The notes under the pieces were generated by a model. The model was not told the DNA's origin and searched no databases. It worked only from the letters and a program-made list of their open reading frames with translations. Made by a program: the position numbers and the translations under genes. From contig OX419760.1 of the NCBI GenBank assembly GCA_948567375.1, forward strand, positions 4,402,001 through 4,466,000: a stretch of 64,000 nucleotides of DNA, in the 5' to 3' direction. The DNA comes from Lunularia cruciata. Its lineage: Eukaryota > Streptophyta > Marchantiopsida > Lunulariales > Lunulariaceae. Position 1 is the first letter of the stretch. Each line of letters begins with the position of its first letter. Positions 3,496 through 55,306 of the stretch are shown in pieces.

Positions 3496-3829
3496 CAGAA
3501 GTTAAGATTCAAGGACATTTCATCCAAAGATCAGAAGCTGGTGAATGTGAGTTGGACAAAGGTTCCCCATCTCGGGGAAACAAGTTCGTTGGAAGAGTAG
3601 GACAAATCCAAAGACTCATCGTCTTTGTCCTCAGACAAATCCGAAGACGAAGTCCAAGTTAATTACTTGGAATGCTACAAGGTGGATGTTGAAGACAAAG
3701 ATCCATATGACCTCACCTTGGGTGAACCTGACTTGGAGGAAGGGGGTTTGATGGCCGCTCGCCTCGGGGTTAAGCCGAGTAAGCCACGTTGAAGGAGTCA
3801 TCAACCCCGATGACTGTCAAGATGTGTTA

Positions 3830-4800: not shown

Positions 4801-4804
4801 CTTT

Positions 4805-5300: not shown

Positions 5301-5339
5301 ATGTGAAGTACGAGGTATGCAGCTGAATATAATTATCTG

Positions 5340-21480: not shown

Positions 21481-21486
21481 TTGTTG

Positions 21487-21518
<32 letters not shown>

Positions 21519-31489: not shown

Positions 31490-31927
31490 TGTCACGCCAT
31501 TTGTAGTTCCGCATCTAGCTGCTCGGACACTGGAGTTCCAGTGATAGTAGTTAGAGTTATTCTAGTAGTTTCTCAGGGACTACTTTCCGACAGTCTGATT
31601 TGGTGTTCAGGGTATTGACTTCACGGTGGGGTCCACCGTCACTTTGCACCGTTTGCACCATCAAGTGTGCAGTCATCGGGACCGTTAGGGTTCCAGTCCA
31701 GGGGGGTATAGTTTCGAAGTGAGCTCCAGAGAGCTCACTTCTTTGATGTTGAGCCTTCGAGTTCCTGGCTATGGTGGATAGAGGCCGGTGAGCGTCACCT
31801 GGATTCTCTATACTTGAGTGGGTGTGGCTTGACTGTAATCAGTGCCCAATTGTTGGCAATTTATAGAGTGACAGATCAAGTACTTATTTGAGTTGATTTG
31901 AGTTGAAAGTGTTAAGCAATCTGATTA
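31490..31927 (+). repeat. Terminal repeat A1 of element C
   Basis: It starts TGTCACGCCATTTGTAG and ends GCAATCTGATTA. It aligns along its length with A2 (40,767-41,218) and is followed directly by leader sequence (CATCAGAGAAG) that A2 does not have. Confidence 0.9.
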
Positions 31928-33331: not shown

Positions 33332-34840
33332 ATGAGGGAGGAGATTGACTCTGAGTTGGAGTCCGACACAGGAGCTGATTCAGTTGAGAGTGCACTTGGT
33401 GTGTCTGCACCGTTGTTGTGGGACATGGATGAGATTTATGGGGCCTCCAAAGGCCCTAGGCGTTACTCTGGTACAGTGGGTATCATTGAGTTGGATGACT
33501 TCATCCAAGAGTTTGATAGTTGGTGTGATCTACAGCAGATGCGGAACCCAACTTTGTTCACACCCTTCATGGCATGGAAGGGGTTGTTTCAGCATCTAGA
33601 GGGTCCACCGATGGATGACTACCATGAATTCAGGAGAGCTCATTTGGAGGAGATTGAGTTATGGAGACAGTATTGGTCTCCACACTACATCTCCATTACT
33701 TCAGGCTCGGTGGCCAGGAGTAGATCGGCTGTACCCATGAGTTCTAGCTTGAGTAGTGTTGGTGGAGCTAGTTGAGGTGCACTAGCTGGAGATAGTGCTA
33801 CTACGAGTGGAGGTACCGCTGCAAGAGGTGGTGTGGTACCGGGGTTTAGCCCCATGGTTGAGTTCTTCCTATGTTTCAGGTAGAACTACAAGGGAGTGCG
33901 GACTGACAAGCTGAGGAGCCTGCAGGAGTTCCAGCGGAAGGCTGGAGAGAGCCTACGCGAGGCATACACTCGCATGAGGCGGCTGATCAGTTTCACTCAG
34001 GGAGTTACTGAGGCCCAGGCAGTCCAGTTTTGGTATGGGATACTGGATAGGGAGTTGCGACGTAGAGTTCGCCCACTTTGGCAGTAGTCTTTGGTTTGGC
34101 TGAGCGTATTGAGCTCAACATGGTGGAGGAGAGAGTGGTGATATCTGGATTTGGTAGAGAGACCTCATCCATGGTTGTGACTTCTTCTAGAGTGCAGCAG
34201 AGTGCACCACGCCTAGTTGGTTTTCAAGGACAGGGTGGACAGCCCAAATCCTATGGAGCGAGTGGAGGGCCTAGTGGAGTTAGACCCTTACCCTCATTTT
34301 TGGGTCAGTAGCAGCCAGTGAGTGGTGGTGTTGCTTGTTGGACTTGTGGTGGACCTCACCATAGGAGAGAGTGTACTCAGGGCAGCGGACCTGATACCTC
34401 TGGTGCATCATAGCCAGCACAGAGGCAGTGTGAGCACTACCACAGATTTGGTCACACTAGTGACCGGTGTTTTGACCTACACCCGGAGTTACGGAGTGGT
34501 AGGGCTGCTATGGCAGGTAGTAGAGGAGCTCCAGTTCATGGAGGACAAGGTGGTAGAGGTGGTGGTAGAGGATCTACACCTAGTAGGGATGCAGTAACTG
34601 CCCTTACTTTTGACACAGCTATGGCTACTCGGATTGAGCAGTTGGAGCAGAGATTGGCTAGTATGGCTATTGCTCAAAGGAGATCAGATTCGGGTCCTGA
34701 GGCTTCCACCTCATATGCTGGTGATAGAGATGCTTTGGACTTCATGTGCGGAGCAGCACAGGTGGATGCATCTGCAGCAGTGACTAGGAGTGTAGTACGT
34801 GCTCCAGAGCCTAGAGGAGCATAGTGGAGTTGGACCCACA
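33332..34840 (+). pseudogene. gag region of element C copy 1
   Basis: It starts with an acidic N-terminus (MREEIDSELESDTGADS) and a region with WCDLQQMRN and GLFQHLEGPPMDDYHEF. A retrotransposon gag segment follows (FQRKAGESLREAYTRMRRL near 33,930). Two zinc-knuckle-like motifs come next: CWTCGGPHHRREC near 34,338 and CEHYHRFGHTSDRC near 34,430. The nucleocapsid motifs would bind RNA. It is a broken fossil. Confidence 0.75.
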
Positions 34841-35269
34841 GAGAGGAGAGGTTGGGAGACAGGTCAGACTTCCCCAGTCTTTCACGCTATCTGAGGCATT
34901 GCAGACGACATCCATGGTTCCTACACGTCCCAGTGCAAGTGTGGTAGGTGGTGATGGATTACATGATGGACTACCTGCTAGTCAGCCACCTACTACTACA
35001 CAGACTGAGTCTAGCATGATGTTGGGGGCGGCTCAGCTGATTATGCGGCATCCTTTGTTTTCAGCCAGTGACATGTTTACATTGGGAGTTGACCCAGCCC
35101 CAATGTTCCGGTTGGCTGCCATGTTGTGTGAGAGTTGGGATGGTGCAGTTCCTACTACTAGAGCAGAGGTGGTTGGTAGTGGAGCTGACTTGGTTAAGGA
35201 GCATGGGATCCGTTCAGCGACCAGTGGTTTATGGTAGGCAGCAACGGCTAGACTGGAGGAGCTGCCAGC

Positions 35270-35760
35270 TAGACCGGCCTTTGAGAGAGTGCAGTTTACA
35301 CCTAGTGTTGTCCTATTGGATAACCATAGGGGGATTTTTCGTTTGGTGGGACCTTCAGGGAAGGTCTATACACCACAAAGAGTCTTGTTAGACTCTGGTG
35401 CGTAGCCCCTTATGTTGGGGAAGGCTGCAGTTGTCGGTCTGGAGTTACGGAAGACTGATGTGGAGAGGTGTCCATGTCAGATCCAGACATCTCTTGGTGG
35501 TGGTTTGACACAGTACATCACACGTGGAGAGCTTGTTGTCCAGGTTCAGCCTGGTCATCCGACTGATAGCTTGGTGGTGAGAGCTTAGGCTATTGCGACG
35601 ATAGCTGAGTCATATGATGTGCTAGTTGGGGGAGCAGTGTTATACCCTATGGGTTTCAGCATTGACTATTGGGAGGAGACAACCTCTTATAGACCTGGTT
35701 GGCAGTCCGGTGAAGGACGGGTATGTCGCCTACCAGTACGCTTCAGTAGTGGCAGTCTTG
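35270..35760 (+). pseudogene. Retropepsin region of element C copy 1
   Basis: An aspartic protease-like segment with the LLDSGA catalytic motif near 35,385, followed by the LVVRA and YDVLVGGAVLYPMGFSIDYW segments (to about 35,675), which match the end of plant Ty3/gypsy proteases. It lies between gag and the methyltransferase. Confidence 0.75.
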
Positions 35761-36104
35761 GCTCACTATAGTCCGGGACCATGGCAGCATCAGTTTTGGC
35801 TTTCAGCGGTGCAGTTACTTGGCCTGGTGACTTGTTGGAGGGGAATGCCCATGCAAAGGATACTCCAGTACCAAGGGAGATCACTCGGCTTTGGAGTATG
35901 AGTGGGATTGTTCCATCCACCTTGGATGTTCTATTGTGGAGTTCAAAGGAGGCATTGCAGCAGCATGCAGATCAGTTGGTGCAACACGCTTGGAGTGGAG
36001 CCTTCGTACCATTAGGGGATGAGTGTAAGGATGAGCCTCTAGAGGCAATTTCTTTGACACCTCTAGATACCACACTCATTGCTTGGCAGTATCCAGTAGA
36101 GGGG

Positions 36105-37075
36105 ATATGTCTATTGGAGTTGTTTGGTGGGATCAACACCAGACTAGCTGCGGTGTTACAGGCGGGTATACGAGTACAGAGGTACTTGTATGTAGAGAGA
36201 GATGAGATTGCTAGGCAAGTCTCTCTACATCATGTGGCACACTTGGCTTATTGGTATCCAGAGTTATTACCGATGTCAGCAGTCAGAGGTTACCAAAAGG
36301 CCTTACCAGGAGACATTTCCTTACTGGGGGTGCATGACCTAGAGAGACATGGGCCTATTCACTTGGTGATTTCTGGATGGCCATGTCAGGGACATACACG
36401 TGCAGGCCGCGGTTTGGGTCTTCAGGATCCTCATTTTGGTGTGTTTTGGGAGATGTTACGGATACTACGACATCTCCAAGTTCATCAGTCTATTTCTCCA
36501 GCTTACCTTTTGGAGAACGTTCCATTGATGGGTGATTCTCACACTAGAGTGGTGGCAAGTACACATCAGGTCCATTCATGGATGGGACCTGCTGTATTGT
36601 TAGATGCAGCCAGCGTGGGATCATGGGCTCATCGTCTTTGGTGGACAAACCTCTTACCCAGAGAGGTTCTACAGCGTAGTTATGATGGGATTCAGCGACT
36701 AGACCACATTCTTGTTGATGATATCTTGGATGCTGGACGTCAGTCTTAGACAATGGTAGTGGCTGATAGGTCACCTATGGCAGTGGTGAACCTAGTTGGA
36801 CAGCCTAGAGCTGCATTTCCCACACTCATGAGTTTCCTTGCCTCTCATGCTTTTTGAGAGGGAGGACCTGGACTTGTTTGGGACTCATAGTTACAGCAGT
36901 TGGTGGAGCCCAATGCTGATGAGAGAGAGCGGGCGATGGGTTTTTGCACCGGTATTACCGCTATTCCAGCAGTGTCATAGGCATCTAGGCGTCAGGTGTT
37001 AGGTTAGGCTATGGACCTAAACTGTTTGACCTGGATTGTGAGCCTTGGCTTGGCAGAGCAGCGTAGGATGCGCTT
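36105..37075 (+). pseudogene. Cytosine-5 DNA methyltransferase domain inside element C
   Basis: The enzyme family transfers a methyl group from S-adenosylmethionine to C5 of cytosine in DNA. Motifs appear in the conventional order: motif I LLELFGG (cofactor loop) near 36,111; motif IV SGWPCQGHTRAGR with the catalytic Cys near 36,381; motif VI LLENVP near 36,507; a motif VIII-like AHRLWWTNLLP near 36,627; and a motif IX-X-like segment (RERAMGF, later MDLNCLTWI) from about 36,920 to 37,060. The unrearranged order and the HRLWW-N-LP block point to a DNMT3-like relative rather than plant DRM. It sits between protease and RT. This is a fossil copy, so activity is not implied. Confidence 0.87.
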
Positions 37076-37129
37076 GATAGGCATCACCACTCGGACACTT
37101 GTGAGCCCTGTGCCTATCAAGACGATTCA

Positions 37130-37450
37130 AGCACATGCTGGGGGCGATGGACCAAGTGGACATGGTATTCTTGGGACACATCCAATAGCTACTAGGGAGA
37201 GTGGTCTACTTGGAGTCCATCCAGGTGAGCGTGGGCTACTTGGATTACACCCTTGGTCCACATGGGATGCAGCTAGAGGACGTGTGGAGCTTGCAGCCAG
37301 AGTGGAGGGAGTTTTTCGCACAAAGATTGGGACCTCTAGTGGTTGAGAGCATGACACTATTGCTCCCAAGGGCCCAGTGTAGCAGCCAGTCAATACGTCT
37401 CCCACTCCTACTTTAGTTACAGAGGATACTTGGGATCTTGGACCCAAGCT
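37130..37450 (+). pseudogene. Linker between methyltransferase and RT, with GLLGxHP repeats
   Basis: A short region encoding three spaced copies of a GxLGxHP motif (GILGTHP, GLLGVHP, GLLGLHP; about 37,162-37,250), with Gly and Arg between them. It resembles a flexible linker. The function is unknown. Confidence 0.5.
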
Positions 37451-37479
37451 TACTGGAGAGGAAAGACGGAGGGTTTGGA

Positions 37480-38400
37480 GGTTCTTGAGGAGTCACACGA
37501 GTTGTTTTGCCTTCAGTATGAAGGATTTGGGTTCTCTGAAGGGACCAAGTATACAGATTGAGCTGACTAGCGACACACCAGTTTTCCAATGTCCTTATCG
37601 ATATAGTGATATGGAGAGGATAATGATTTAGAGCCAGAGTAGTGACCTTTTTGAGGCTAGTTTGGTGGAGATTTCACATGGAGAGTATGCATCAGCGACA
37701 ATGATGCCAGCCAAGAAGGATATGCATGGCAACTATACAGATAGGCGGATGTGTGGATATTACTGTCCTATCAACCGACAGACCAAGGCTGATCGGTATG
37801 CCATGCCTACACCGGAGGAGATTTTTGATGTGATTGGGCATGCAAAGGTCTTCAGTGTTTTGGATCTTCGAGCGGGATATCATCAGTTGCCGATTAGGGA
37901 GGAAGATAAGTCCAAGACAACATTTTGGGCTATTGATCCTCACGGTAAGGATGTGTTATATCAGTGGAGGTTCTTACCATTTGGGTTGAAGAACGCTCCT
38001 GCTGAGTTCCAGAGGGTCATGGATAGGATCCTAGCTGGATTGGATTTTGCTCGGTGCTATATTGATGACATTTTGGTTTATAGCACTACTGTGGAGGAGC
38101 ATGAGAGATAGTTGTTGGAGGTGTTTGAGAGGTTGAGATCTCATGGACTCAAATTACATCTTGGGAAGTGTAGGTTCTTCCACAAGCAGGTTGAGTATTT
38201 GGGTCACACTATCTACCCCGGAGGACTTGGTGTCCAGCAGACCAAGGTCCTATTCTATTGCACGTATTCCTTGGCCTACGGATGTGAGCAAAGTGCGAGC
38301 ATTCCTTGGGTTGGCAAACTTCTATCACCGTTATGTTAGAGGATTTAGTGCCATTGCCAAGGCCTTGATGAAGCTGACCAAGCTTACACAAGAGTGGTGT
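37480..38400 (+). pseudogene. Reverse transcriptase region of element C copy 1
   Basis: Ty3/gypsy-type RT with CGYYCPINRQTKADRYAMP, FSVLDLRAGYHQLPI, LPFGLKNAPAEFQRVMD and the catalytic YIDDILVYS near 38,060. Downstream segments include VEYLGHTI and RAFLGLANFYHRYVRGF. The sequence is clearly separate from the Tat and chromovirus RTs elsewhere in the window. Confidence 0.9.
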
Positions 38401-38820
38401 TGGGGAGATGAGCAGGAGAGAGCTTTTATAGAGCTCAAGGAGAGGTTGACATCTGCTCCTATTTTGAGGAAACCAATTAGGGGACGGCCATTTCAGGTTC
38501 ACACTGATTGGAGTATGTTGGGGCTTGGAGCGGTGCTCATCCAGCATGATGATGAGGAGAAGGAGTTTGTGGTGGCCTATGCTAGTCGCTCCAACAATTC
38601 AGCGGAGGCAAAGTATAGTTCATATGAGGGAGAGTGCTTGGCAGCAGTTTGGGCAGTAGCACATTTCCAATGTTACCTATTTGGTAACCCCTTCACTCTC
38701 ATCACTGATCATCAGCCGCTGAAGTGGTTGATGGAGTCCGACAAGCTTTCAGGGAAGCTTGCACGATGGGCTCTGATTTTATAGGAGTATGATTTCGCGG
38801 TTGTTCACAGACCTGGAGTG
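38400..38820 (+). pseudogene. RNase H region of element C copy 1
   Basis: RNase H with FQVHTDWSMLGLGAVLIQ, AKYSSYEGECLAAVWAV and FTLITDHQPLKWLM, in the standard place after RT. The same region reappears in copy 2 from 52,879. Confidence 0.9.
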
Positions 38821-39199
38821 GTGAACCGTGATGCAAATGGGTTGAGTAGCAACCCATGTCCCAGCCAGCAGGATCAGACCGGAGCACATTGGCATGGTGA
38901 GACAGATGAGGAGATGGTGCCAGCTTGGCATGCATTGGCCTTTCTGTGTATATTTGCAGAGACTTTGGTGGTATCTCTCTCAGCGCATACAGGAGGAGTT
39001 ATTGAGGTCACAGATCCAAAGAGTGAAGATATTGGTACAATTCCGCGAGACATTCATGATGATGTCTTAGTGATGGACTATCTTTGCATTGGTGTTGTGG
39101 GTGGTACAGTTGGGGCCAAGGAGAGAGATCGTGTTCTCAGCAAGCCAGACGGTTCAGATTGGAGGGTAGGCACCTTTTACGTGTATGGGAGGATGGTAA

Positions 39200-40150
39200 A
39201 GTGCGAGTAGTACCACTTCCATCATAGAGGCCACAGTTGGTCCGTCATGCTCATGAGGAGCTAGGACATTTTGGAGTAAAGTGTACATATAGCTTACTCC
39301 AGAGTCATTATTGGTGGCACGGTATGCAGACCAAGGTACAGTAGTTTGTTGCCAGATGTGTGGTTTGTGACCGAGTTAGAGCATCATTCAATGCTCCTAC
39401 GCCACAATTACACCCATTACCTATCATGGGATTGGGTTACCGTTGGAGTTTGGACTTCACCGGACCTTTACCACTGACTGTGAGACATCATTGGTATGTT
39501 TTGGTGATGGTGGAGCATTTCTCCAAGTGGATTGAGTTGGTGGCACTTCCTGACAAGTCTAGTGAAAGGACAGCTTACTCATTCCTGGATCGAGTTCTTA
39601 GTCATTTTGGTGCACTAGCTGAGGTTTTGACTGATCAGGGTACAAAGTTCTTGGGAGAGTTTCAGGTCTTGTGTGACAAGGCTTTGATTGATCATCCTAC
39701 TACATCCCAAGATCACCCTGAGGCAGATGGCTTAGCAGAGAGAGTGGTTCAGACGGTGAAGAGAGGATTGTGAAAGTATGGTTTGCAGGGAGGCCACTTG
39801 GGAGATTGGGATCTCCAATTACCTTGGTTGGCCATGGGCTATCGGTTCAGCCGGCAAGCCTCCTTAGCATCCTTCTCTCCATACTTTCTATTCTATGGAT
39901 GAGATCCAGATTTACTTGGAGCCATTCGTCAAGATGCTACTGTAGTTTTGGACTTGGATGACCCCGATGTATGGATGAGCGCATGTTCTCAGCGGGCAGA
40001 GATCTTTCGGAGAGTGATGCCGATGGCCTTTGAGAACTTGGCGATTGCTCAGCATAGAGATACTTTATGCTATGCTACCATTCAAGGAGGAGGTTATAGA
40101 CCCTCGATCTGTCTATTTCATCCAAGCGACTATGTATATCTACAGTAGAC
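39200..40150 (+). pseudogene. DDE integrase region of element C copy 1
   Basis: HHCC zinc region (RHAHEELGHFGVKC near 39,240 and ARCVVCDR near 39,352). The core follows with SLDFTGPLPL near 39,450 (first Asp), LTDQGTKFLGEF near 39,627 (second Asp) and DHPEADGLAERVVQTVKRG near 39,712 (Glu). It is a retroviral-type integrase and not a tyrosine recombinase, which matters for reading the terminal repeats. Confidence 0.9.
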
Positions 40151-40339
40151 AGCACCGATGACACTTGATGTTTCTATAGGCCGCACTATCTTGAGAGTGT
40201 GCGAGGTTTTTCCATCTGGAGTCCTTGTGTTAGAAGGACGTGATGGTGTTGTTTGGAAGGATCATGTGCGTAATTGTGCGCCATGCCACCTCCCAAACAT
40301 TGATGGTACTATGGACCCAAGCTTGGCACTTGTACATGC

Positions 40340-40495
40340 AGGCTTAAGGTGCATGTTATGTGGCTCATCTGGTGGAGCTTCTACTATGTTAGTGTGTGAT
40401 AGTTGTTTGAGAGGATGACATATGGCATGTATGACTCCTCCCCTCACGGTGGTTCCTCAAGGATAGTGGTTATGTCCTAGATGTACTTGACCTAT
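40340..40495 (+). pseudogene. PHD finger at the C-terminal end of element C pol
   Basis: Downstream of integrase the sequence encodes a C4HC3 zinc-finger pattern: CMLC near 40,351, CDSC near 40,396, a His-x2-Cys pair near 40,420 and CPRC near 40,477, with a W before the last pair, as in PHD fingers. PHD fingers read histone H3 tails. The position matches where chromoviruses carry a chromodomain, so a role in integration targeting is a reasonable inference. Confidence 0.75.
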
Positions 40496-40659
40496 AGTTA
40501 GTTCATTCTTTATATGGTATAGATTGCAGACAGGCGACTAACAATGGGGCTCCATAGCACCCGGCCTCTTGATCTTTGCCCATTAGAGGGTATACCATAT
40601 ACTTAGAGTAGATGGCTATCTGGAGTTAGAGGGACCTAACCGCCAGCTAGGAGGGCAAT

Positions 40660-40764
40660 TGTGGCACTTTAGAGTCTATGTATGACTTATGTGTGAGTTG
40701 TGCTTCTATAGTGCATGATGTTGACAGCGATGTATGTTGTGTAGCGATGTATATACGCACGACA
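40660..40764 (+). repeat. Terminal repeat B1 of element C
   Basis: A 105-base block, TGTGGCACTTTAGAG to ACGCACGACA, just after a purine-rich AGGAGGGCAAT. It is repeated almost perfectly as B2 on the far side of A2. Confidence 0.9.
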
Positions 40765-40766
40765 GC

Positions 40767-41218
40767 TGTCACGCCATTTGTAGTTCTGCATCTAGCTGCT
40801 CGGACACTGGAGTTCCAGTGATAGTAGTTAGAGTTATTCTAGTAGTTTCTCAAGGACTACTTTCTGACAGTCTGATTTGGTGTTTGGGGTACTGACTTCA
40901 CGGTGGGGCCCACCGTTACTTTGCACTGTTCGCACCGGGTCGAGTGTGCCGTCATCGGGATTGTTAGGGTTCCAGTGCTAGCTCGAGTCCAGGGGGGGAT
41001 AGTTTTGAAGTGAGCTCTAGAGAGCTCACTTCTTTGATGTTGAGCCTTCGAGTTCCTGGCTATGGTGGACAGAGGCCGGTGAGCGTCACCTGGATTCTCT
41101 ATGCTTGAGTGGGTGTGGCTTGACTGTAATCAGTGCCCAGTTGTTGGCAGTTTATAGAGTGATAGATCAAGTACTGATCTGAGTTGAGTTGAGTTGAAAG
41201 TGTTAAGCAATCTGATTA
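40767..41218 (+). repeat. Terminal repeat A2 of element C
   Basis: Starts TGTCACGCCATTTGTAG and ends GCAATCTGATTA like A1, with a few percent divergence and a small length difference near GCTAGCTCGAGTCC. B1 and B2 flank it. Confidence 0.9.
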
Positions 41219-41219
41219 T

Positions 41220-41324
41220 TGTGGCACTTTAGAGTCTATGTATGACTTATGTGTGAGTTGTGCTTCTATAGTGTATGATGTTGACAGCGATGTATGTTTT
41301 GTAGCGATGTATATACGCACGACA
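41220..41324 (+). repeat. Terminal repeat B2 of element C
   Basis: A second copy of the 105-base B block with about two differences from B1. The copia sequence resumes immediately after it (CTATTCTTACC), so B2 forms the right end of the inserted element. Confidence 0.9.
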
Positions 41325-42881: not shown

Positions 42882-43005
42882 TGTTACATTAGCATGATAG
42901 ATAATAAAATACATCTATAAGAAGTGTTTTAGTCATGCTCAACCACTTGAACATTTGTTATAATTGTTTGTACTTTCAAGACAAGCCCTTTTGTTGATAG
43001 ACTAA
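42882..43005 (+). repeat. Start of copia 3' LTR
   Basis: TGTTACATTAGC follows directly after the polypurine run AAGAGAGGG, as in plant copia elements. The sequence gives way to LINE-like sequence near 43,010, so the LTR is incomplete or its end is not recognisable. Confidence 0.55.
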
Positions 43006-44137: not shown

Positions 44138-44555
44138 ATCTTACCATTTGTAACATTGCACCTAGATTGCATGGACATTAGAGTACTATTGTGTGTAGTT
44201 AGAGGTATTTTGGGCAGTTACTCATAGACTACTTGTTGACAATTAGATTTCATGTTCAAAGTACTAACTACATGGTGGGGCCCACTGTCACTTGCATTTT
44301 TCACACCGTCAAGTGTGCAGCCAGCGGGCCCATTAGGGTTGGAGACCTAGGTCAAGGTAAAGGCGTATACTTTTAAAATATAGCTCCAGAGAGCTCATTT
44401 GTCTAATGTTGAGCCATTGAGTTCTTGGCTATAGTGGACAGAGATTGGCGAGCGTCACTTGGAGTCTCTTAGCTAGAGTGGATGGCTTGAGGGTAATCAA
44501 TGCCTAATTGTTGGTAGATTGTTAAGTGTGATTTGAGTTGAAAACAAACTAATTA
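44138..44555 (+). repeat. Terminal repeat A1 of element C copy 2
   Basis: It aligns with 31,490-31,927, including the CACATGGTGGGGCCCACTGTCAC-type block near 44,270. As in copy 1 it passes into leader sequence (CATTAGAGAACTAAAG) at the same point. Confidence 0.8.
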
Positions 44556-44889
44556 CATTAGAGAACTAAAGTCAAGGGGGAAATTAGGTGCAAGAACTAA
44601 GGGTGTTGGTGGTATCTCCAAGCCTTGCTGATAATTGGTAACTTGATCATGTGCAGAAGCTCTTCAAATTGATGTAGATTTGGCAATGAGACACATAGTG
44701 TACGGAAGCATTGGCCAAATTTCCCTAAGAATAGAGTCAATTTCAAGCAATGGTGTTTAGTTTGAGACTAGGAGGTGAAATCAGGTCGAGTTGAGCTCAC
44801 AAGTCAAAATTGGACGTAGAGTTGGGAACCCATTTCTTTGAATTTGTGATTTGGAGAACCCTGTCCTTCCGATTTGGCTCAAGTAGAGA

Positions 44890-45135
44890 TTTAGTGGAAG
44901 ATTTGGCGGTTTACTAAATGTAGAGAAGTTACATCAGATTTATGTTAAATTTGGTGGAGGGTTTATGTCAAATTTTGGCTTGAGTTGGAGAAGCTTGGCC
45001 AAATTTGGAGGTGGCTCGAGTGGAGATTTTGCGGTCTGCCAAATGAAGTTACGTCAAATTTATGCCAAATTTGGTGGAGGGTTTATGTCAGATTTTGGCT
45101 TGAGTTGGAGAAGCTTGGCCAAATTTGGAGAGAGT
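44890..45135 (+). repeat. 120-base tandem duplication in the leader of copy 2
   Basis: TTGGTGGAGGGTTTATGTCA occurs at 44,951 and 45,071, and the flanking bases repeat too. Copy 1 has shorter related TTTGGAGGAG units at the equivalent place. Confidence 0.8.
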
Positions 45136-45270
45136 TCAAAGTGGCAAGAAGAAAGGCCTCATTTGGCTGAATCTTGGCTTCAAGGCAAGCTAGCTTGTTG
45201 GCATGAAGCTAGTTAGTTTAGAGTAGTTTTTGGTCATTGTTTGGCAAAATTTGCACACCTTGCTACATTG

Positions 45271-45337
45271 TGTGCAATAGGGTTTGAACCCTAGATCTTT
45301 GGTTCTTAGACTGGTGCCCTAGCCAACTGGTCCACCC
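45271..45337 (-). other. tRNA-like sequence in the leader of copy 2
   Basis: The reverse complement has GGACCAGTTGGCTAGGGCA (D-arm or A-box-like) and a T-arm TAGGG TTCAAAC CCTA that pairs perfectly. It matches the segment at 32,626-32,695 in copy 1. Confidence 0.5.
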
Positions 45338-45869
45338 TCACTTGTTGTCCTAGTAACTGTTCCATTGATATCTATACACATGTAGCTTTGGCTAGGAGAG
45401 ACAATTTGATTCCATTCTTGGTGATCTTGGTAGCTTAGGAAGTAGATAACTCCTATTATCTCAAATGCCAAATAGTCAATTTGATATTGATTTATGATAT
45501 GAGGGTTTTTATTTAGATTTCTTGTGATTGGACCCCCTCCATTCTATGCTTCCTATTTGTGCACCATGTTTGTGTGAGGTAGCCTAACTTTAGAGCGCTG
45601 GTGCTCTAGTGTACTCTCAATAATGAGGCAAGAATGATGACTAGTCAGACTACTTATGTTTCTTTTTGGTGAGGTAGAAAGTGATGACTTGCAAATTGTG
45701 AGAGTGCATGTTGTGATGGTAGGTTATAGGTTGCTCTTTGCCCTTTTCCCTCGTGTAGTTGTTGTAGTTAAAGTTACAATAGAGTTCTTTGGGGATTCTA
45801 GAGAGATAACATTGTAGTACATAATGGGTTTACTTGGAGTGGCGCTTGGTATCAGCCCGTATCTCAAGT

Positions 45870-47490
45870 GCCAATGAGGGAGGAGATTGACTCTGAGTTG
45901 GAGGTTGACACAAGAGCTGATTTAGTTGAGAGTGCACTTGGTGTGTTTGCACCACTATTGTGGGACATGCATGAGATTTATGGGGCATTACTTTGGCATT
46001 AACCTAAGCATTACCATGGTACAATGAGTACCATTGAGTTGGATGACTTCATTTAGGAGTTTGATAGTTGCTATGATATATAGTAGATGAAAAACCTGAC
46101 TTTGTTCACACCTTTCAGGGCATGGAAGTGGTTTGTTCAGCACTTGGAGGGTTTATTGATGGATGACTATCATGAGTTTAGGAGTGCTCACTTGGAGGAG
46201 ATTGAGCCATGGAGACATTGGTCTCCAAACTACATCTCCATCACTTCAAATTTGGTTTTTAGGGGTAGATAGGCAATACCCATGAGTTCCATATCTAATG
46301 GCATTAGTGGATCTTTTGGAGACGGTGCTACTATGAGTGGAAGTACCACTATAGAAAGTGATGTAGTACCAAGGTTTAACCCCATAATGGAGTTCTTCTA
46401 GTGTTTGAAGGCAAAACTACTAGGGAGTGCAAATTGACAAGCTAAGGAGCTTGCAAGGGTTACAAGGGAAGGCTGGAGAGAGCCTATGCAAGGCATACAC
46501 TTACATGAGACGGTTAATCAGTTTTACTCACGGAGTTACTTAGGCCCAATCAGTCTAATTTTGGTATGGGATACCGGATAGGGAGTTATGATGTAGATTA
46601 TGTGATGTTATGTTGTTATAGGCTAGTTTGCCTACTTTGGCAATAGTCTTTGGTTTGGCTGAGCATATTGAGCTCAACAAAGTGGAGGAGAGAGTGGTGA
46701 TATCTAGATTTTGGTAGGGAGACCTCATCCACAACTATCACTTTTTCTAGAGTGCAATAAAGTGCACCATGCCATGTTGGCTTTTGAGGATAAGGTGGAT
46801 AGCCTAGATCTTATAGAGGGCCTAGTGTAGCTAGATCCTTATCTTGATTTTTGGGTCAGCAGCAGCTAGTGAGTGGTGGTGCTACTTGTTGGACTTGTGG
46901 TGGAGCTCACCACAAGAGAGAGTGTAGCAAATCTGATACTTCTAGTGCATCTTAGCCGGCATAAAGATAATGTGACCATTGCCACAAATTTGGTCACACT
47001 AGTAATCGATGCTTTGACCTACACCTAGAGTTATGGAGTGGGAGAGTTGCAAGTGGTAAAGGAGCTCTAGGTCATGGAGGATGAGGTGGTAGAGGATCCA
47101 CACTTGGTACGGGTGTGGTACTTGCCCTTACTTTTGATATAGCCATGGCTACTTGGATTAAGCAGTTGGAGTAAAGATTTGCTAACATGGCCATAACTTA
47201 GAGGAGATCAAATTTGGGTGCGACGGCTTCCACCTCATATGCTGGTAGAAGAGATATTTTAGAATTCATGTGTGGAGTAGCGAAGGTGGATGCATCTATC
47301 ATAATGACTAGGAGTGTAGTAGATGATCCAGAGCCTAAAGGAGCATCAATGGAGTTGGACCCATAGAGAGGAGAGGATGGTAGATAGGTCAAACTCCCCC
47401 AATCTTTTATACTCTTTGAGGCACTACAAACAACATTCATGGCTCATAGACGTCCTAGTGCAAGTATGATAGATGGTGATAGGGTGCATG
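45870..47490 (+). pseudogene. gag region of element C copy 2
   Basis: It aligns with gag of copy 1, including the FVQHLEG-type stretch near 46,130 and a zinc-knuckle segment CWTCGGAHHKREC near 46,890. It stops at 47,490 where the next insertion begins. Heavily decayed. Confidence 0.75.
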
Positions 47491-47814
47491 TGTAATACTT
47501 CAAGGACAAGAGAACTCTTCAAGAGAGATACAAGAGAGCAAAAACACAAGTTTCACACTCAATCCTTTAATGCCCCAAAGGAACAACTTCTCTTTATTAT
47601 ATAGCAAAGATGATCTCCTCACAAGAAGCTCCACGCTTGGATCAAATACATGGATTGGTGATTTGTCTGCAAGCTCCATCCTTAGATTAGTAGTTTGGAT
47701 AGGTGATATGTTAGTCCTTGTCGTATCTAGTTGGTTGAAAGGACTTAAGGGAATATTTAGGGAATCTTCTTGTAGGGAGCTCAAAATTGCATGGATGAGT
47801 TACCGTTGGAAATT
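47491..47814 (+). mobile_element. Family D LTR fragment
   Basis: Starts TGTAATACTTCAAGGACAAG and matches the minus-strand family D fragment at 22,706-22,370. It ends where a Tat-type LTR start begins. Confidence 0.6.
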
Positions 47815-48240
47815 GTGGTACCCACATTTTTCATTTTGGATGAGTTTTAAAGAAGAAGTGCATTTCTGAAACCAAATTGACACCAAATTGAATCCAAATG
47901 GAGAAGAAATGAGGGGAAACCTATGTTTTGATCAAGCTCAAGAAAGTCAACTTTGTGTTGGAGGAAGAAGGATTTGGATTGGATCAGACTCAAAGAAGTT
48001 TACTTTGTGTTAGAGGAAGAAGGAGGTTAGACACCATACGAGGGTTTCTTTGCATTGGAATGAAGGTTGTAGGTTAGGATTTACTGCAGGGGCTATATCT
48101 CAATGACCACATGTTCAAATCATGCATGGTATGTTTCATTGGAAGCATCTCGTTCAGGGTTTTCCACTGCACCAAAATTGCAAAGTTTGGAGGTCTATAG
48201 CAGAAGTAACAAGCATTTGAAGTTTTGGGAATAGATGTAT
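47815..48240 (+). mobile_element. Tat-type LTR start fragment
   Basis: TTGTGGTACCCACATTTTTC matches the left end of the element A LTR at 6,631, and the next bases (GAGTTTTAAAGAAGAAGTGC) match the minus-strand copy near 29,720. The right limit is approximate. The LTR-borne coding region is not present. Confidence 0.55.
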
Positions 48241-48585
48241 AGAGTAATTGAGTGCTTTTATGCCCATGTGAATGGAGATTCCTTTCTACTTTTTGACTTT
48301 ACTTGACTTTTAGTCTAGTAACTTGAGTTACTATGGTAATTAGTAACTTTGGTACATAACTATTTCACAAGTATATAAACAAGGGGTGATGAGGTACTCA
48401 TCATCCTTTCATTTACAACTATGTCTCTCTCATTGAGTTCTCTAGTGAGCAATGTCTTGAGTCTTGGAGTGTTAGCCTTGGAGGAGTATGATGGAGTTGG
48501 GGTTCCTTGCCTTCTTAGTCCATGGTGCATTACCATAATAGCCATCAGAGGTTCATCTTGAGTGAGAGACAGGCCGGCTCACAGG
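48241..48585 (+). repeat. Family E LTR, right part
   Basis: It is the reverse complement of 54,421-54,750, with shared blocks such as GAGTTCTCTAGTGAGCAATG and a TATA-like TATAAACAAGG near 48,375. It ends at GCCGGCTCAC. Confidence 0.75.
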
Positions 48586-51500
48586 TCTTGACCTCAACTT
48601 ACACCAAGCTTACCAATACAATACGCACGGGTGAAAGAACCATCACCAATGGAGATTAATGCTATCCAACGGAGGCTACTTGGTGCAGTAGATAGAGAAA
48701 GATTGCAACAAAATAGAGGTTGTTTTTATTGTCACCAAGTTGCTCATTACATTGTTGAATGTCTACTTAAGAATGGGCGACCTCAAAAAGTTGCCTAGAT
48801 GGAGTTTGTAGAACCGAATGATCAGGGGCACAAAGAATCCCAGTAGGACATTTGAGCTGCCTATTGGGAGCTTGATTAGTTCCAATAGGATTGAAGGCTC
48901 AAGATATGTAAGTTTGCTTCACTTGCAAGGTACGTTATCTAATTGAGGTTGTAGGATTTTGGTTGATTCTGTAAGTTTAGAGAATTGCATGTCTATGCAA
49001 GTAGCAAAGGAATTGGGTATTCCTTTCAAGCCAATGATTGGAAGTAGTTTGATGATGGCGGATGGTAGAAAGGGTTATGCATTCTGCACCTTGCATCCTA
49101 TTACCTTCAAGATTGGGAAGGAGTATTTGGAGTGTAGGAGGTTTGTAGTAGCACCTCTATACTATGATATCATTCTGGGTCTACCTTGGCTTGAACGTCA
49201 TAAGGTTCAATTTGATTGGACCTGACACTAAATTCAATTACAACACCAAGGTAGGAATTTCAGATTAGGTTGTCTGGAACCTTTGAGTAAGACATCTAGA
49301 ATAGTCAGTCCCAAGATGAGAAGCTTGTCGAGAAGGTAGCCATAGAGCAAACCTTGAAGGGAGTGGAGTCCTAAGATGGGAAGTTTGCCAAGAAGGCAAC
49401 CATGGAGCAAGCTTGGAAGAGAGATGAGTCCTTGGAAGGGAAGTTTGTTAGTAAAGTAACCATAGAGCAAGCTTTGGAGGAAGATAAGTTTGTATTCATA
49501 GTGTGGATCAAGCCAATTGCACAAGAACAATTGGAGGAGGGCCAAGAGCCTCATCAAGCAATGGTTTATCAGATAGTTTAGGAGTTTGCAAACGTGTTTT
49601 TGGATGATCTGCCAAAGGGATTACCCTCCGATCAAGGTATGCCCTTCAAGATTGAGTTATTGCCAGGGAGTACTCCATTGAGTAGACCAATCTATTGGCT
49701 CTCACCAAAGGAGTTGGAGGAGTTGTGAACAACACTTACAGAGTTGTTGGAGAAGGACTTCATACAACATAGTACCTCTCCTTGGGGAGCACCGGTACTA
49801 TTTGTTCCAAAGGATGGAGGACTTGGTTTTTGTATTGATTACCATGGGCTCAATAAGCAAACCATGAAGAATGCATATCCTTTGCCTTGGATTGATGACT
49901 TGCTTGATCAACTAAGTGGAGCACACTACTTTTCCAAGTTGGATCTTTGTAGCAGCTATTGGCAAATTCCTATTGAAAGAGAGGATGTGCAAAAGACTAC
50001 CTTTCGTACAAGGTATGGGTATTTTGAGTGGAGAGTTCTACCTCTTGGACTCACTAATGCTCCAATAGTCTTCATGGATCAGATGCATCGGGTGTTGGAT
50101 GGACTATTGGATTGGTTCGTGGTGGTGTTCTTGGATGATATCTTAATATATAGTAAGACAGAGGTGGAACATGTGAATCATGTGCAAGAAGTCCTAAGAC
50201 AACTACAACAATGGAAATTTTACGACAAGAAGTTGAAGTGTGCCTTTTGGCAGAAGGAGGTTTCCTTCTTGGGTCATAAGATCTCATCAGAGGGAATCAA
50301 GATGGAAGAAGAGAAAATCAAGGCCATTACTGATTGGCCTATCCTGAAGGATGCTATAGAAGTATGGGCATTCAATGGATTAGCCAGTTCTTACCGACGG
50401 TTCATCCATTATTATGCTCATGTGGCTGCACCAGTGACTGATCTCTTGGGAAAGAACTTGAGCTTCCAGTGGGCCACCAAGCATGAAGAAGCATTCTAGA
50501 AGTTAAAGCATATGGTGTCTTCAAGACCCATTCTTCAACCATATGATCCTCAACTACCCTATGTGGTTGATTTGGATGCTTCTAACTTTGCAATTAGAGC
50601 CGTGTTGTAACAAGAATTCCCAGATGGACTCCATCCCATTGCCTTTGTGTCTTGCCGACTCAATATAGCTGAACAAAACTACTCTGCTTGAGATTGAGAA
50701 CAACTTGCAATGGTATATGCCACCAAGGTATGGAGGCATTACCTCTTAGGGAAACAAGTGATCATGTAAACTGATCACAAACCATTGTTGCAGACCTTAC
50801 ACTTGGAGCACATGAAGAGTCGACATCATCGATGGGAGGAACAACTCCAACTATATGACATCAAACTTGAGTACAAACCAGGTCGGTTCCATGTCATCCT
50901 TGATGCTTTATCATGATGACCTGATTTGAAGTCTCTTCCTCTCATCACAACGGCAATTTCAATGGTGTCATTTGACTCCAAGGTCCAAAATGAGTTTCAA
51001 TCAGCTCTTCACCAAGATCCTTTCTTCCAGATAGTACATGGTTGCCTTACGGCATGTGATAAAGAGTACAACACCTTCTCCATCAAGGAGGGCCTTTTAT
51101 TCCATGAGGACCGGATCTATGTTCCAGCTAAAGGTGATCTTTGACTTGTGCGCCTTCAAGAAGCCCATGATTTACCCATTGCTGGTCACATGGGTGTGGA
51201 CAAGACCTTGGGTACCCTCCAACATCAATGGTGGTGGCCCAACATGACACAAGATGTTCGAGAATTTGTCCAATAGTGTGAGAGCTGCCAATGTAACAAG
51301 CCCAGCAACCAGAAGCCGAGTGGACTCCTTCAACCACTCGCTATTTCATCCGCTCATTGGGAGCATGTGAGCTTGGATCTCATCACATCCTTGCCAAAGA
51401 CAAAACAAGGACACACTGCTATCATGGTGTTTGTGGATAAGCTTAATAAGAAAATCCACTTGGCACCAACTTGTGATACCAAGGATGTCCAATCTTAGTG

Positions 51501-52464
51501 CAAATCTACTTTGACAATGTCTTCAAGCATCATGGGATACCACATGTACTCATCTCCGACCGTGATCCTCAATTTACCAAGAAGTTTTGGCAAGCACTCT
51601 TCCAGATACTTGGCACCAAGCTTGCTTTGTCCAAGGCCTATCATCTTCAAACTGATAGACAAACCAAAAGTGCAAATCGTACATTGGAGGATATGTTGCA
51701 TGCCTTTGTCAATGTCCACGATACCAATTAGGATGAATGTCTTGCACTTGCAAAATTTGCCTACAACAATTTCAAACAGGCAAGCACCAGATTTTCTCCT
51801 TTCTTTCTTAATTTTGGCCAAGATCCGCTTGTTCTAGAATCTCTTTTTGCTCCCCTTTCATCTAAGGTTCCTCATATTTCCACATTCTTGACCACTATCC
51901 CAATCTCTCCAACAAGCCAAGTCTCACCTCCTTATTGCTCAAAATCACCAAAAACAATATGCAAACCATCATCATCGTGATCTCACCTTTGAAGTGGGTG
52001 ATAAAGTCATGTTATCTGCTAGTAACCTCCCTCTCCCAATTGATACCCAAGTTTGTAAACTTGCCCCTAATTGGATAGGACCCTTTGATATCACCCAAAT
52101 TGTCTCTCTTGTTGCTTATCGACTTGCCTTGCCTTGTCACATGCGTATCCATCCTGTCTTTCATGTTTCCAAGTTGAAACACTTTGTTCCTAACCCCTCT
52201 TCCTTTTCCTCTCGAGTCCAACCTCCACCATTTCTTGTCCCTATCAATGATCATGAGGAGTAGGAAGTTGATTGTATCCTTGCGCGTCGCCATATTCAAC
52301 AAGGCCGTTGCCAACATACAGAATACAAGGTCTTTCGGAAAGGGTATCCCCTTCATGATGCCACATGGGAACCTCTTTCTCACCTCCAAAATGCACAAAC
52401 AACCATCCAAGAATTCAAAGCTTCACTAGCGATGAGGACATCACCAACTAGCGGCGGGGAAGTA
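48586..52464 (+). mobile_element. Chromovirus (Ty3/gypsy), internal region
   Basis: Parts in order: a gag zinc knuckle (CFYCHQVAHYIVEC near 48,720), protease (CRILVDSVSLENCMSMQ near 48,953, then GLPWLERHKVQFDW), RT (LCSSYWQIPIEREDVQKT, VFLDDILIYSKTEVEHV near 50,127, SFLGHKISSEG), RNase H (50,500-50,920), integrase (HLQTDRQTKSANRTLEDM near 51,643; MRIHPVFHVSKLKHF near 52,140) and a chromodomain near 52,260-52,425. The 5' end is replaced by a family E LTR piece. Broken at around ten places. Confidence 0.88.
52260..52425 (+). pseudogene. Chromodomain of the chromovirus
   Basis: The end of the integrase region encodes ILARRHIQQGRCQHTEYKVF followed by the GYPLHDATWEP core, the hallmark of plant chromovirus chromodomains, which are thought to steer integration by binding histone marks. 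Confidence 0.85.
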
Positions 52465-52878
52465 TGTAACAATATGGAGTCTAGCAACAAAGTTAGTCGG
52501 GCTTACAAAGTAGCACATAAGACAAATTAACCTAGAATATTCCGGAAGTATCTAGGAAGCTTCTTGGGAAGCTTCCTGGCTAACTTAGCTTGCACCTCAA
52601 GTAAGTAGCTTCTAGAAGCTTCCAACTAGCTTAGCTTGCATGCCAAGTAGGAGACTTCTAGAAGTAAGCTTCTTGAGAAGCTTCCTAGTTAACTTGGCTT
52701 GCACTCTAAGAAAGTGGCTTGAGTAAGCTTCTTGAGAAGCTTCTCAAGGGCCTTGTATGTTGCCTATAAATACCAAAGCCAAAGCTCATGCTAGGCATTT
52801 GGAGTTTTCTCACATTCAAGAGTCCCAATGTGAGTTTCCATTCTCCTATTTCTCTCCTTGGTCTCGGTCTTTTACACC
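52465..52878 (+). repeat. Chromovirus 3' LTR
   Basis: Begins TGTAACAATATGGAGTC after the purine-rich AGCGGCGGGGAAG. It contains several short AGAAGCTTC/GAAGCTTCT palindromes (52,550-52,745) and a TATA-like CCTATAAATACC near 52,763, and ends before the TATGCTAGTCGCTCC of element C. It matches the minus-strand LTR at 29,847-30,258. Confidence 0.85.
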
Positions 52879-54420
52879 TATGCTAGTCGCTCCAACATTT
52901 AAGCAGAGGCAAAGTATAGTTCATATGAGGGAGAGTTCTTGGGAGCAATTTGGGCAGTAGCACACTTTTGATGTAACATTTTTGATATCTATTTAGTAAC
53001 CCCTCCACTCTCTTCACTGATCATCAACCACTAAAGTGGTTGATGGAATACGACAAGCTTTTAGGGAAGCTTGCACGATGGGCTCTAATTTTATAGGAGT
53101 ATGATTTCATGGTTGTTCATAGACCTGGAGTGGTGCACCATGATGTAGATGAGTTGAGTAGAAACCAATGTCCCAGCAAGCAAGAACATACCTAAGCACA
53201 TTGGTATGGTGACTGAGATGAGGAGATAGTGCCAGGTTGGCATGCATTTGCCTTCTTGTGTATATTTTTTGAGGCTTTGGTAGTATCTCTCTTAGTGCAT
53301 ACAAGAGGAGTTATTGAGGTCACAAATCCAAAGTATGAAGATATTGGTACAGTTTAGCACGACATTCATGATGATGTCTTAGTGATGGATTATCTTTGCA
53401 CTAGTGTTGTGGGTGGCACAATTCGAGCCAAGCAGATAGATCATGTTCTTCAGCAAGCTAGACAATTCAGATTGGAGGGTAGATACCTTTTTGTGTATGG
53501 GAGGATGGTAGAGTGCATGTAGTACCACTTCCATATCAGAGACCATAATTGGTCTGTCAAACTCACAAGGAGCTAGGACATTTTGGAGTAAAGCATACTT
53601 ATAGCTTACTCTAGAGTCATTATTGGTGGCACGGTATGTAGACCAAGGTACAACATTTTTTGCCAAATGTGTGGTTTGTGACTAAGTTAGAGCATCATTC
53701 AATGCTCCTACACCACAATTACACCCATTACCTATTATAGGATTGGGTGACCATTGGAGTTTGGACTTTATTAGACCTTTACCGTTGACTGTGAGACACC
53801 ATTGATATGTTTTGGTGATGGTGGAGCACTTCTCCAAGTGGATTGAGTTGGTGACACTTCTTGACAAGTCCAATGAAAGGACGGCTTGTTTGTTCCTAGA
53901 TCAAGCTCTTAGTCATTTTGGTACACCAATTGAGGTTTTGATTGATTAGGGTACAAAGTTCTTAGGGGAGTTTTAGGTCTTGTGTGACAAGGCTTTGTTT
54001 GATCATCGTACTACCTCTCAAGATCACTTGAGGTAGATGGTTTAGTAGAGAGAGTGGTTCAGACAATGAAGAGAGGATTGCAAAAGTATGGTTTGCAAAG
54101 AGACCACTTGGGAGATTGGGATTTCCAATTACCTTGGTTCGCCATGGGCTATCGATTCAGCCAGCAAGCATCCTTAGCATCCTTCTCTCCTTACTTTCTA
54201 CTCTATGGACAAGATCCAAATTCACCTGCATCCATGTGTTGAGATGCTACTATAGTTTTGGACTTGGATGATCTAGATGTATGAATGAGTGCATATTTTC
54301 AATAGGTAGAGATCTTTTGGAGAGTAATGCCGATGGCCTTTGAGAACTTTGCGATTGCTCAACAAAGAGATACCTTACATTATGCTACTATTCAAGGAGG
54401 AGGTTAAAGACCCTCAATCT
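52879..54420 (+). pseudogene. RNase H-integrase part of element C copy 2
   Basis: It resumes element C at the point matching 38,578 in copy 1 and runs through RNase H and the integrase core to the position matching about 40,110. Conserved pieces include the LGHFGVKHTYSLL-type zinc region near 53,575 and LPWFAMGYRFSQQASLASFS near 54,130. Heavily decayed. Confidence 0.8.
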
Positions 54421-55306
54421 GTGAGCCGGCTTGTCTCTCACTCAGGATGAACCTCTGATGGCTATTATGGTAGCGCACCATGGACTAAGAAGGCATGGAA
54501 CCCCAACTCCATCACACTCCTCCAAGGCTAACACTCCAAGATTCAAGACATTGCTCACTAGAGAACTCAATGAGAGAGAGATAGTTGCAAATGAAAGGAT
54601 GATGAGTACCTCCTCATGCCTTGTTTATATATTTGTGAAATAGTTACGTACTAAAGTTACTTATTACTGCAATAACTCAAGTTACTAGGCTAAAAGTCAA
54701 GTAAAGTCAAAAAGTATAAAGGAATATCCATTCACATGGGCATATTCCACTAGCATGTGATCTTATCTTGAACCAACCACCAAGGATTCCTTCACATGGG
54801 GCTATCCTTGGACTATAGAAGAATCCAAAACAAAAAGGCTTACGTGCCCAAGAGTTCTCAACTCTTTCCTCAAAGCCAAACACCTAGGAATAATACCAAG
54901 TCAACACACTAGAATCCAAAATAGTGGTGCTTATCTTTTCCACTTCCTCTAAAATAAGGTCCCCTCTATCTTAGCTATGACTAACTTTAACTAATCATGA
55001 CTAATGTAGAACCATCCTTTATCTCTATATAAATAGTGTCTCTCAAGTACTTGTAATACCAAGCTAAATATCACAATACCACACACATGTACAAATGGGT
55101 GTTACATTTACCCCCGGACTAAGTTTTCACTTTGTCCTCAAAGTGAAGGTCTCTCTACCTTCTATGATATATCTTCAACTTATCATGGTTAATCCTATCA
55201 AAGTGTCTTCCTCCCAACTCCTTGAGATCATAGGTGTAATTGCTCCACAACTTCTCCACTATGAAAGGTCCAAAGTTTATATACAGAAGCATCAAATGGG
55301 TGTTAC
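54421..55306 (-). mobile_element. Family E LTR with a short internal remnant
   Basis: Inserted in copy 2 of element C, in reverse orientation. On the minus strand, about 200 bases encode the end of an integrase (GGRHFDRINHDKLKIYH) and a purine-rich TCCGGGGGTAAA, followed by an LTR starting TGTAACACCCATTTG near 55,107 and ending GCCGGCTCAC at 54,421. The same TGTAACACCCATTTG also marks the outer end near 55,306. A fossil fragment. Confidence 0.7.

Follow-up and report, generated by a model that had tools for sequence, protein, structure and literature searches.

A DNMT3-like cytosine methyltransferase within a high-copy Ty3/Gypsy retrotransposon family with split repeats in Lunularia cruciata

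Results

A methyltransferase-bearing Gypsy element

The window analysed here, a stretch of 64,000 nucleotides from the Lunularia cruciata genome (contig OX419760.1), contains a retroelement whose features are collected in Table 1. All of its coding domains, mapped by tblastn from another copy, lie on the same (+) strand and are arranged as an ORF1 encoding Gag, protease and methyltransferase and an ORF2, in the same frame, encoding reverse transcriptase (RT), RNase H, integrase and a PHD finger. The initial annotation had proposed that a cytosine-5 methyltransferase lies inside a Ty3/gypsy-type element, and this was borne out by a Pfam DNA_methylase match (PF00145, 26.9 bits) flanked on the same strand by the protease before it and the RT after it.

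Table 1. Features of the element in the window (positions of the 64,000-nucleotide stretch)
Feature	Position	Strand	Remarks
A1, left repeat	31490..31927	+	starts TGTCACG, the element's left end
Gag-like region with CCHC-type knuckles	33422..34539	+	frame change near 34070; 94% amino acid identity to another copy
Aspartic protease region	35202..35744	+	LLDSGA motif
DNMT3-like cytosine-5 methyltransferase	36057..37115	+	tblastn with another copy, 91% identity; decayed in the window copy
TAG CAG CCA, fixed in-frame stop of UAG-CAR-YYA type at the ORF1/ORF2 boundary	37380..37388	+	
Reverse transcriptase and RNase H	37467..38817	+	tblastn; frame change near 38220-38250
Integrase: H2C2 zinc finger and rve core	38818..40076	+	tblastn; frame change near 39140
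C-terminal part with PHD finger	40077-40487	+	tblastn with another copy
PHD finger region	40350..40484	+	PF00628, 9.8e-11 in reference copy L013
Purine-rich run TAGGAGGGCA, candidate plus-strand primer site	40648..40657	+	adjoins B1
B1 repeat, 107 bp	40658..40764	+	
GC spacer between B1 and A2; palindromic junction GACA-GC-TGTC	40765..40766	+	
A2 repeat	40767..41217	+	
B2 repeat	41218..41324	+	ends ..GCACGACA, the element's right end

Piecewise Pfam searches of the reference copy returned PF00145, RVT_1, RT_RNaseH, Integrase_H2C2, rve and PHD (9.8e-11). Retrotrans_gag scored 15.7 bits there, under the Pfam cut-off, and the protease, without a Pfam match in that copy, was recognised by its LLDSGA motif alone; Pfam lists aspartyl-protease families for the relatives P0083 and P0098. 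The order RT-RNase H-integrase, with a Gypsy-type RT and an rve integrase, is that of Gypsy elements, and Ty3 was the top PDB match of a profile that includes the RT-RNase H of relatives. The window copy itself is decayed, with frame shifts in gag, RT and integrase and five stop codons in the counted part of the methyltransferase, three of which are CAG turned TAG. Judged from its sequence, the element is almost certainly a decayed member of a large family of Ty3/Gypsy lineage with a captured DNMT3-like methyltransferase.

Several other remnants share the window. A second, diverged relative of the same family (44158..56447, +; about 76-88% nucleotide identity, depending on the piece) is broken by another Gypsy element at approximately 47481-52876 (RT at 49615-50883). 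Its gag, integrase, PHD finger and B-A-B end are still legible, and its protease, methyltransferase and most of its RT were not found. A separate Gypsy element at 948-6227 (+) contains gag, a weak protease, RNase H and integrase, and tblastn gave no methyltransferase match in it at E 1e-3. A putative Copia-like remnant, recognised by eye, adjoins the right end of the methyltransferase element (41350-42900, +), and a large-subunit rRNA fragment at 21456-21586 (-; Rfam RF02543, 108.6 bits) is probably an rDNA-derived remnant.

The methyltransferase is DNMT3-like

The window frame spanning 35772-36746 (325 amino acids) matched PF00145 with an E-value of 4.2e-06 and a score above the 22-bit cut-off, which is the Pfam check that the initial annotation had called for; another copy of the family scored 29.4 bits. 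Inspection by eye identified motifs I (LELFGG), IV (GWPCQGH), VI (LENVP), VIII-like (AHRxRLWWTN) and IX/X-like (DERExxMGF..VLGQAMDLNCLTWIV). Their order is unrearranged, as the annotation had described. DRM enzymes are characterized by a rearranged order, with motifs VI-X before I-IV; that order is absent from the element's enzyme and is displayed by the host's own DRM (locus L050), and motif order thus rules out a DRM origin. DNMT3A and DNMT3B were the best sequence and fold matches of the domain: DNMT3A was the top PDB match of the window frame (1.2e-05), and fold comparison gave Z scores of 28.0 for DNMT3A, 24.8 for M.MpeI and 23.6 for M.HhaI. The predicted structure forms a complete fold. 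Motif order and the PDB and fold matches together support assignment of the domain as a C5 methyltransferase that is DNMT3-like rather than DRM-like, in line with the DNMT3-like or independent source favoured at the outset.

In an alignment of 16 sequences the motif IV cysteine and glutamine are invariant and the motif VI Glu-Asn pair nearly so. That pair remains nearly invariant in an alignment of 54 rows, which includes fragments and in which no column is invariant. Many algal members (P0057, P0060, P0087, P0090, P0122 and others) display ECQ instead of PCQ at motif IV.

Split repeats and an integrase

The single pair of terminal repeats that had been described at this locus proved to be a split set of direct repeats in the arrangement A1-coding-B1-A2-B2, with termini TG and CA. 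B1 precedes A2 in every copy whose A2 is full-length (17 of 17; internal gaps in L009 and L024), and B starts 0-6 bases past A2 in each of the 15 copies with enough sequence, the whole of B2 being visible in L015 and L024 alone and 18-42 bases of it in the other 13. B does not follow A1 except in L016, where a solo A-B unit is present. That unit (L016:415-969, oriented) is flanked by a CCTT duplication and has the structure that a recombination of A1 with A2 would leave. The B1/A2 spacer is GC at eight of nine junctions and AC at the ninth, the GC spacer and its flanks form the palindrome GACA-GC-TGTC, and an exact junction 28-mer occurs 477 times in the genome. B1 is immediately preceded by a purine run in the window copy, the second element and each of 19 further copies inspected. 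Visual inspection of the sequence 3' of A1 recognised no primer binding site.

These ends combine traits of different classes. TG..CA termini and the 4-5 bp target duplication of Ty3/Gypsy elements were found, the latter as 4-bp duplications in three of the four units with both flanks (L015, CACT; L024, GTGT; the L016 solo A-B unit, CCTT); the window copy displays none (flanks GTAA/CTAT). The plain LTR pair of Ty3/Gypsy elements is absent, and a plain LTR element was ruled out by the 107-bp B unit that flanks A2 on both sides. Split direct repeats are a DIRS trait. Pfam searches of the reference copy at E up to 1 detected no tyrosine recombinase, the DIRS enzyme, and ORF2 contains an H2C2 finger and rve core; nor did they detect a chromodomain of the chromovirus kind at the integrase C-terminus, where a PHD finger is found instead.

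A family of thousands of copies

The Lunularia cruciata genome has been described as a 580 Mb assembly with Gypsy bursts (PMC9985172, in the part covered here); our searches covered 566 Mb in 74 contigs. A protein search identified at least 123 methyltransferase places, which apart from the window itself are 91-93% identical. These are the best-scoring of 13,092 candidates, and are therefore neither a random sample nor a full count; 82 of the 123 are free of stops over the searched stretch. A 32-mer from the methyltransferase, chosen for its presence in 39 of 41 copies, had 836 exact matches and 4,013 with up to three mismatches, and an RT 32-mer had 2,037 and 5,112, respectively; the reversed control of each had none. 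(An earlier pattern drawn from the window copy gave 65 matches and was replaced by the one common to the 39 copies.) The exact counts might be read as indicating many copies without the enzyme, but the gap narrows when mismatches are allowed, so that much of it corresponds to sequence divergence. The family thus comprises thousands of whole or partial copies, and if most matches represent long copies it would amount to tens of Mb, or several per cent of the genome.

Domain order and frames were read in 20 long copies, 18 of which were picked for long open frames and so do not form a random sample; both frames are fully open in one of the 20. The same domain order in these copies, together with the thousands of matches, answers the search for further copies that the initial annotation had proposed. 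A1 and A2 of the window copy have diverged by 0.063, against 0.004-0.037 in 14 other copies, and the window copy is therefore older than those 14. Activity of the family was probably recent. Taken together, the data support the methyltransferase as a component that members of this high-copy Gypsy family inherit.

A conserved stop codon separates ORF1 from ORF2

The ORF1 frame ends at the identical place in all 20 long copies. The sequence there is TAG-CAG-CCA in 19 of them and in the window, and TAG-TAG-CCA in the remaining copy. Genome-wide, among 1,021 places with both flanks, TAG occupies this position in 987 and CAG in two, which rules out mere decay as the origin of the stop at 37380. UAG-CAR-YYA is the tobamovirus-type readthrough context. 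ORF2 is in phase with ORF1, and its first methionine in the reference copy is the 48th codon. In alignment, the stop coincides with the end of the Marchantia ORF1 model P0069, and by eye P0070 and P0074 end alike; also by eye, and at the level of protein models alone, the Marchantia and Sphagnum models that fuse methyltransferase and RT (P0072, P0075 and P0086) do so without the intervening stretch. Retention of the stop after the methyltransferase would place the enzyme in the Gag-level rather than the RT-level product.

Constraint on the enzyme and methylation-type decay of the copies

Compared with Marchantia P0069, the methyltransferase of the Lunularia genome is the best-kept stretch of ORF1, at 71% (gag 64, protease 62, linker 51 and tail 41%). 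Among 21 sequences, the ratio of nonsynonymous to synonymous variants per site (N/S), for variants present in at least two sequences, was 0.32 for the methyltransferase, 0.31 for the stretch before it, 0.26 for gag and 0.20 for RT (range 0.19-0.28 over gag, protease, RT and RNase H), 0.79 for the linker and 0.63 for the tail; most of these copies had been chosen for an open ORF1, and the shared class is inflated by recurrent deamination at methylated sites. The corresponding values for integrase (0.58) and the PHD part (0.53) suggest weaker constraint, but two badly aligned copies disturb them. Variants seen once gave 0.44 for the methyltransferase, 0.45 for gag, 0.47 for RT, 1.64 for the tail and 2.07 for the linker. 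With 41 sequences the methyltransferase values were 0.41 (shared) and 0.57 (single).

The copies decay in a context-dependent manner. Over 40 copies, the fraction of sites with a transition variant was 0.68 at CG, 0.55 at CHG and 0.11 at CHH; 18 of the 33 stop codons in 41 rows replace CAG and eight replace CGA; and CG or CHG sites account for 81 of the 102 A1/A2 transitions. Inserted copies thus seem to have been methylated at CG and CHG in the manner of host enzymes, a pattern for which host CMT and MET could account entirely. From this decay it follows that the enzyme gives the inserted copies that carry it no protection from methylation. The host genome contains two DNMT3 loci (L049 and L052, with motifs in separate exons), the rearranged DRM and a CMT-like exon (L051), and so genes for de novo methylation are present.

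Relatives in plants and green algae

Named relatives among the matches listed came from Marchantia polymorpha, Marchantia paleacea, Riccia sorocarpa, Calypogeia fissa, Sphagnum species and Closterium, and from the chlorophytes Haematococcus lacustris and Monoraphidium neglectum; a Chromochloris relative was read from its JGI tag. The protein search that found the chlorophytes gave 233 proteins, of which the best 120 were listed, most without an organism name. Scans with P0069 and P0089 found no relatives in viral contigs.

Two positions of the enzyme within pol are represented. Of 214 proteins (counting the frame in the window itself and a small number from bacteria), 110 have the methyltransferase after RT/RNase H, 79 of these in the order RT-RH-MT-INT-PHD; eight have it before RT or RNase H, 25 display PR-MT alone, and 71 contain the methyltransferase alone or with integrase. 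The named chlorophyte proteins display RT-RH-MT-INT-PHD or part of it, and the named streptophyte proteins that reach RT or protease display PR-MT-RT or part of it. A PHD finger is present in 108 of the 214, without a known case of the streptophyte order among them; in streptophyte-type elements it was found in the Lunularia cruciata genome only.

The phylogenetic placement that had been suggested for the domain was obtained in part. In a careful tree whose bootstrap had not settled, the 37 sampled retroelement methyltransferases form one clade (100/99.9) on a branch of length 1.92, against outside rows of only two host DNMT3, one DRM and three bacterial enzymes; within it, support is 89/85 for the streptophyte and 64/76 for the chlorophyte type. 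In a quick tree of 100 rows the chlorophyte type, with P0057 and P0122 inside, reached 99. Closterium forms a long branch. A quick RT tree, with two outgroup Gypsy RTs only, united both types at 95 (chlorophyte 97, streptophyte 70). The algal-type protein P0122 displays the order protease-MT-RT (by eye; PF13975), with its enzyme nested in the chlorophyte type-B clade (96). The domain survey of the 214 proteins registered only the MT in P0122, and its RT is too partial for placement in the RT tree; it possibly represents a second move of the methyltransferase or a module transfer between Gypsy lineages.

Discussion

The follow-up confirms the finding as real and stronger than first stated: a methyltransferase match was obtained, and the domain is shared with other copies of the element. 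The PHD finger, the putatively leaky stop, the split layout of the repeats and the distribution over green plants and algae are additions to the initial annotation. A separate host gene, or a chance insertion into one copy, is ruled out as an explanation and has virtually no probability left, the enzyme being common to very many copies of the family and found across phyla, and the host DNMT3 loci being different and split into exons. Identity, anatomy and the following steps of expression and replication, taken as a whole, form an explanation that we consider probable.

Most ribosomes would stop at the UAG and produce Gag-protease-methyltransferase, and a few would read through it to add the RT-integrase extension, so that the methyltransferase would be made in a Gag-like rather than an RT-like amount and packed in the particle. 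The context of the stop suggests that these events are, jointly, likely. The enzyme might then methylate the element's own new double-stranded DNA before integration, a step to which we give slightly less than an even chance. The PHD finger, whose nearest solved relatives presumably include readers of the unmodified H3 tail, could steer integration to inactive chromatin, and copies that arrive in silent DNA already marked would then cost the host little; we regard this part as doubtful. For the ends, we tentatively suggest that B-GC-A is the repeat used in reverse transcription and that integrase acts on a two-repeat circle or tandem form, cutting it at B|GC|A to yield A1-coding-B1-GC-A2-B2, a model with clearly less than an even chance and weakened by the lack of a recognised primer binding site.

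Other roles for the enzyme can be weighed against methylation of the element's own DNA. DNMT2 acts on RNA, and the element's enzyme might likewise act mainly on genomic RNA or a tRNA primer; its place in one frame with Gag would fit such a role, and methylation of RNA is considered by de Mendoza et al. for the LINE element that they describe (PMC5890265, in the part covered here). Sequence and fold nevertheless favour DNMT3 (12.4-12.6 bits for DNMT2 vs 28 for DNMT3A), and we consider an RNA substrate very unlikely. The enzyme could instead be turned against host silencing, as a decoy or by disturbing host methylation in trans, and the thousands of matches that exist despite host DNMT3, DRM and CMT-like loci would agree with this; the CG and CHG methylation footprint on the copies argues against it, leaving it distinctly improbable. 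Retention of the protein for a task other than catalysis, for example to bind DNA or Gag, would accommodate the ECQ of many algal relatives and the lack of an invariant column among the 54 rows, fragments included. It fits poorly with the invariant motif IV Cys and Gln in 16 sequences, where motif VI Glu-Asn is nearly so, with the near-invariance of Glu-Asn in the larger alignment and with the whole fold of the model, and there is little likelihood that it is correct.

The origin of the family raises a separate choice. The streptophyte (PR-MT-RT) and chlorophyte (RH-MT-INT) elements may have captured related host enzymes independently, as the two pol positions would allow; the enzyme tree was built without chlorophyte host methyltransferases, and the capture in Klebsormidium nitens has been called independent of that in Symbiodinium (PMC5890265, in the part covered here). 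Against this, the 37 retroelement rows form one clade apart from host DNMT3 and DRM (bootstrap not settled), the RTs of both types group together relative to two other Gypsy RTs in the quick tree, and both types have a PHD finger, and so we hold independent capture to be unlikely. These sequences are most simply read as one ancient capture and a later move within pol, and the liverwort, peat moss and green algal relatives suggest that the enzyme was taken up long ago and kept since; the element may also have been transferred horizontally among hosts. The most inclusive form of this reading is that a single ancient green Gypsy lineage acquired a DNMT3-like writer and a PHD reader and came to combine split repeats with a DDE integrase; that the writer-reader pair has been kept since before the streptophyte-chlorophyte split, the writer moving between two places in pol; and that the element replicates via a circle cut at B-GC-A by integrase, with the methyltransferase marking unintegrated DNA. 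As a whole it is a speculative proposal, and we think it rather improbable. If true, it would tie split repeats to methyltransferase carriage, as in SymbioDIRS-Dnmt3; DIRS elements elsewhere carry adenine methylases.

DNA methylation is a main means of transposon silencing in plant cells, and an element that brings along a methyltransferase of de novo type, and does so in thousands of whole or partial copies, reverses the usual picture of an arms race. The presence of members in Marchantia, a genetic model, makes the gain to a transposon from methylating DNA directly testable, and the combination of methyltransferase, PHD reader and split repeats yields concrete predictions on replication and landing sites.

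Parts of this combination are found elsewhere. Chromoviruses are Ty3/Gypsy elements with a chromodomain; they share with the Lunularia element a Gypsy pol and a chromatin-reader module at the integrase C-terminus, from which the latter differs in its PHD finger, its additional methyltransferase and its split repeats. Ginger1 DNA transposons share a Gypsy-related integrase with extra C-terminal domains, including a PHD finger in one listed family, but have no reverse transcriptase, and 'methyltransferase' is not mentioned in the part of that paper covered here (PMC2836005). Orchid Gypsy elements with an AlkB-like m6A demethylase domain likewise add a nucleic-acid modification enzyme to Gypsy, although theirs is of RNA demethylase type, lies in an additional ORF, and is recent and confined to Phalaenopsis (PMC9289625, in the part covered here). 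Among the matches listed from titles and abstracts of the open-licence PMC literature (without preprints), we found no report of a bryophyte or chlorophyte Gypsy element with a cytosine methyltransferase, or of a Gypsy retrotransposon integrase with a PHD finger; in the covered parts of two further papers, neither PHD nor methyltransferase is mentioned (PMC6317226), and the sole 'phd finger' belongs to a neighbouring gene (PMC3286476).

The closest known systems are those of de Mendoza et al. (2018; PMC5890265, here and below as far as covered). SymbioDIRS-Dnmt3 of Symbiodinium shares a DNMT3 domain in Pol and A-coding-B-A-B repeats, and two domain orders coexist there as they do among green-lineage elements; it differs in having a tyrosine recombinase rather than a DDE integrase and belongs to another class of retrotransposon. 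KnitGypsy-Dnmt3 of Klebsormidium nitens, a Gypsy element with a DNMT3-related domain, corresponds to the Lunularia element, when compared by description, in its Gypsy domains, in the unrearranged DNMT3-related domain within the polyprotein, in lacking introns and in its A-coding-B-A-B repeats, which were described as a DIRS structure. It reportedly has fewer copies than the Symbiodinium element, and its enzyme displayed no activity in yeast, a result that the authors called inconclusive. The main text of that paper does not mention PHD, liverwort, Marchantia or moss, and uses 'bryophyte' once (for host DNMT3) and 'stop codon' once (for premature stops); no protein named K. nitens was among the matches listed for the methyltransferase relatives. 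By description, the Lunularia element belongs with KnitGypsy-Dnmt3 as the same in kind. In the literature considered here, as far as covered, the Gypsy case was previously limited to one charophyte alga; the sequences described above extend it by a PHD reader, a predicted leaky stop, thousands of matches in one genome, two positions in pol and a spread across green plants and algae.
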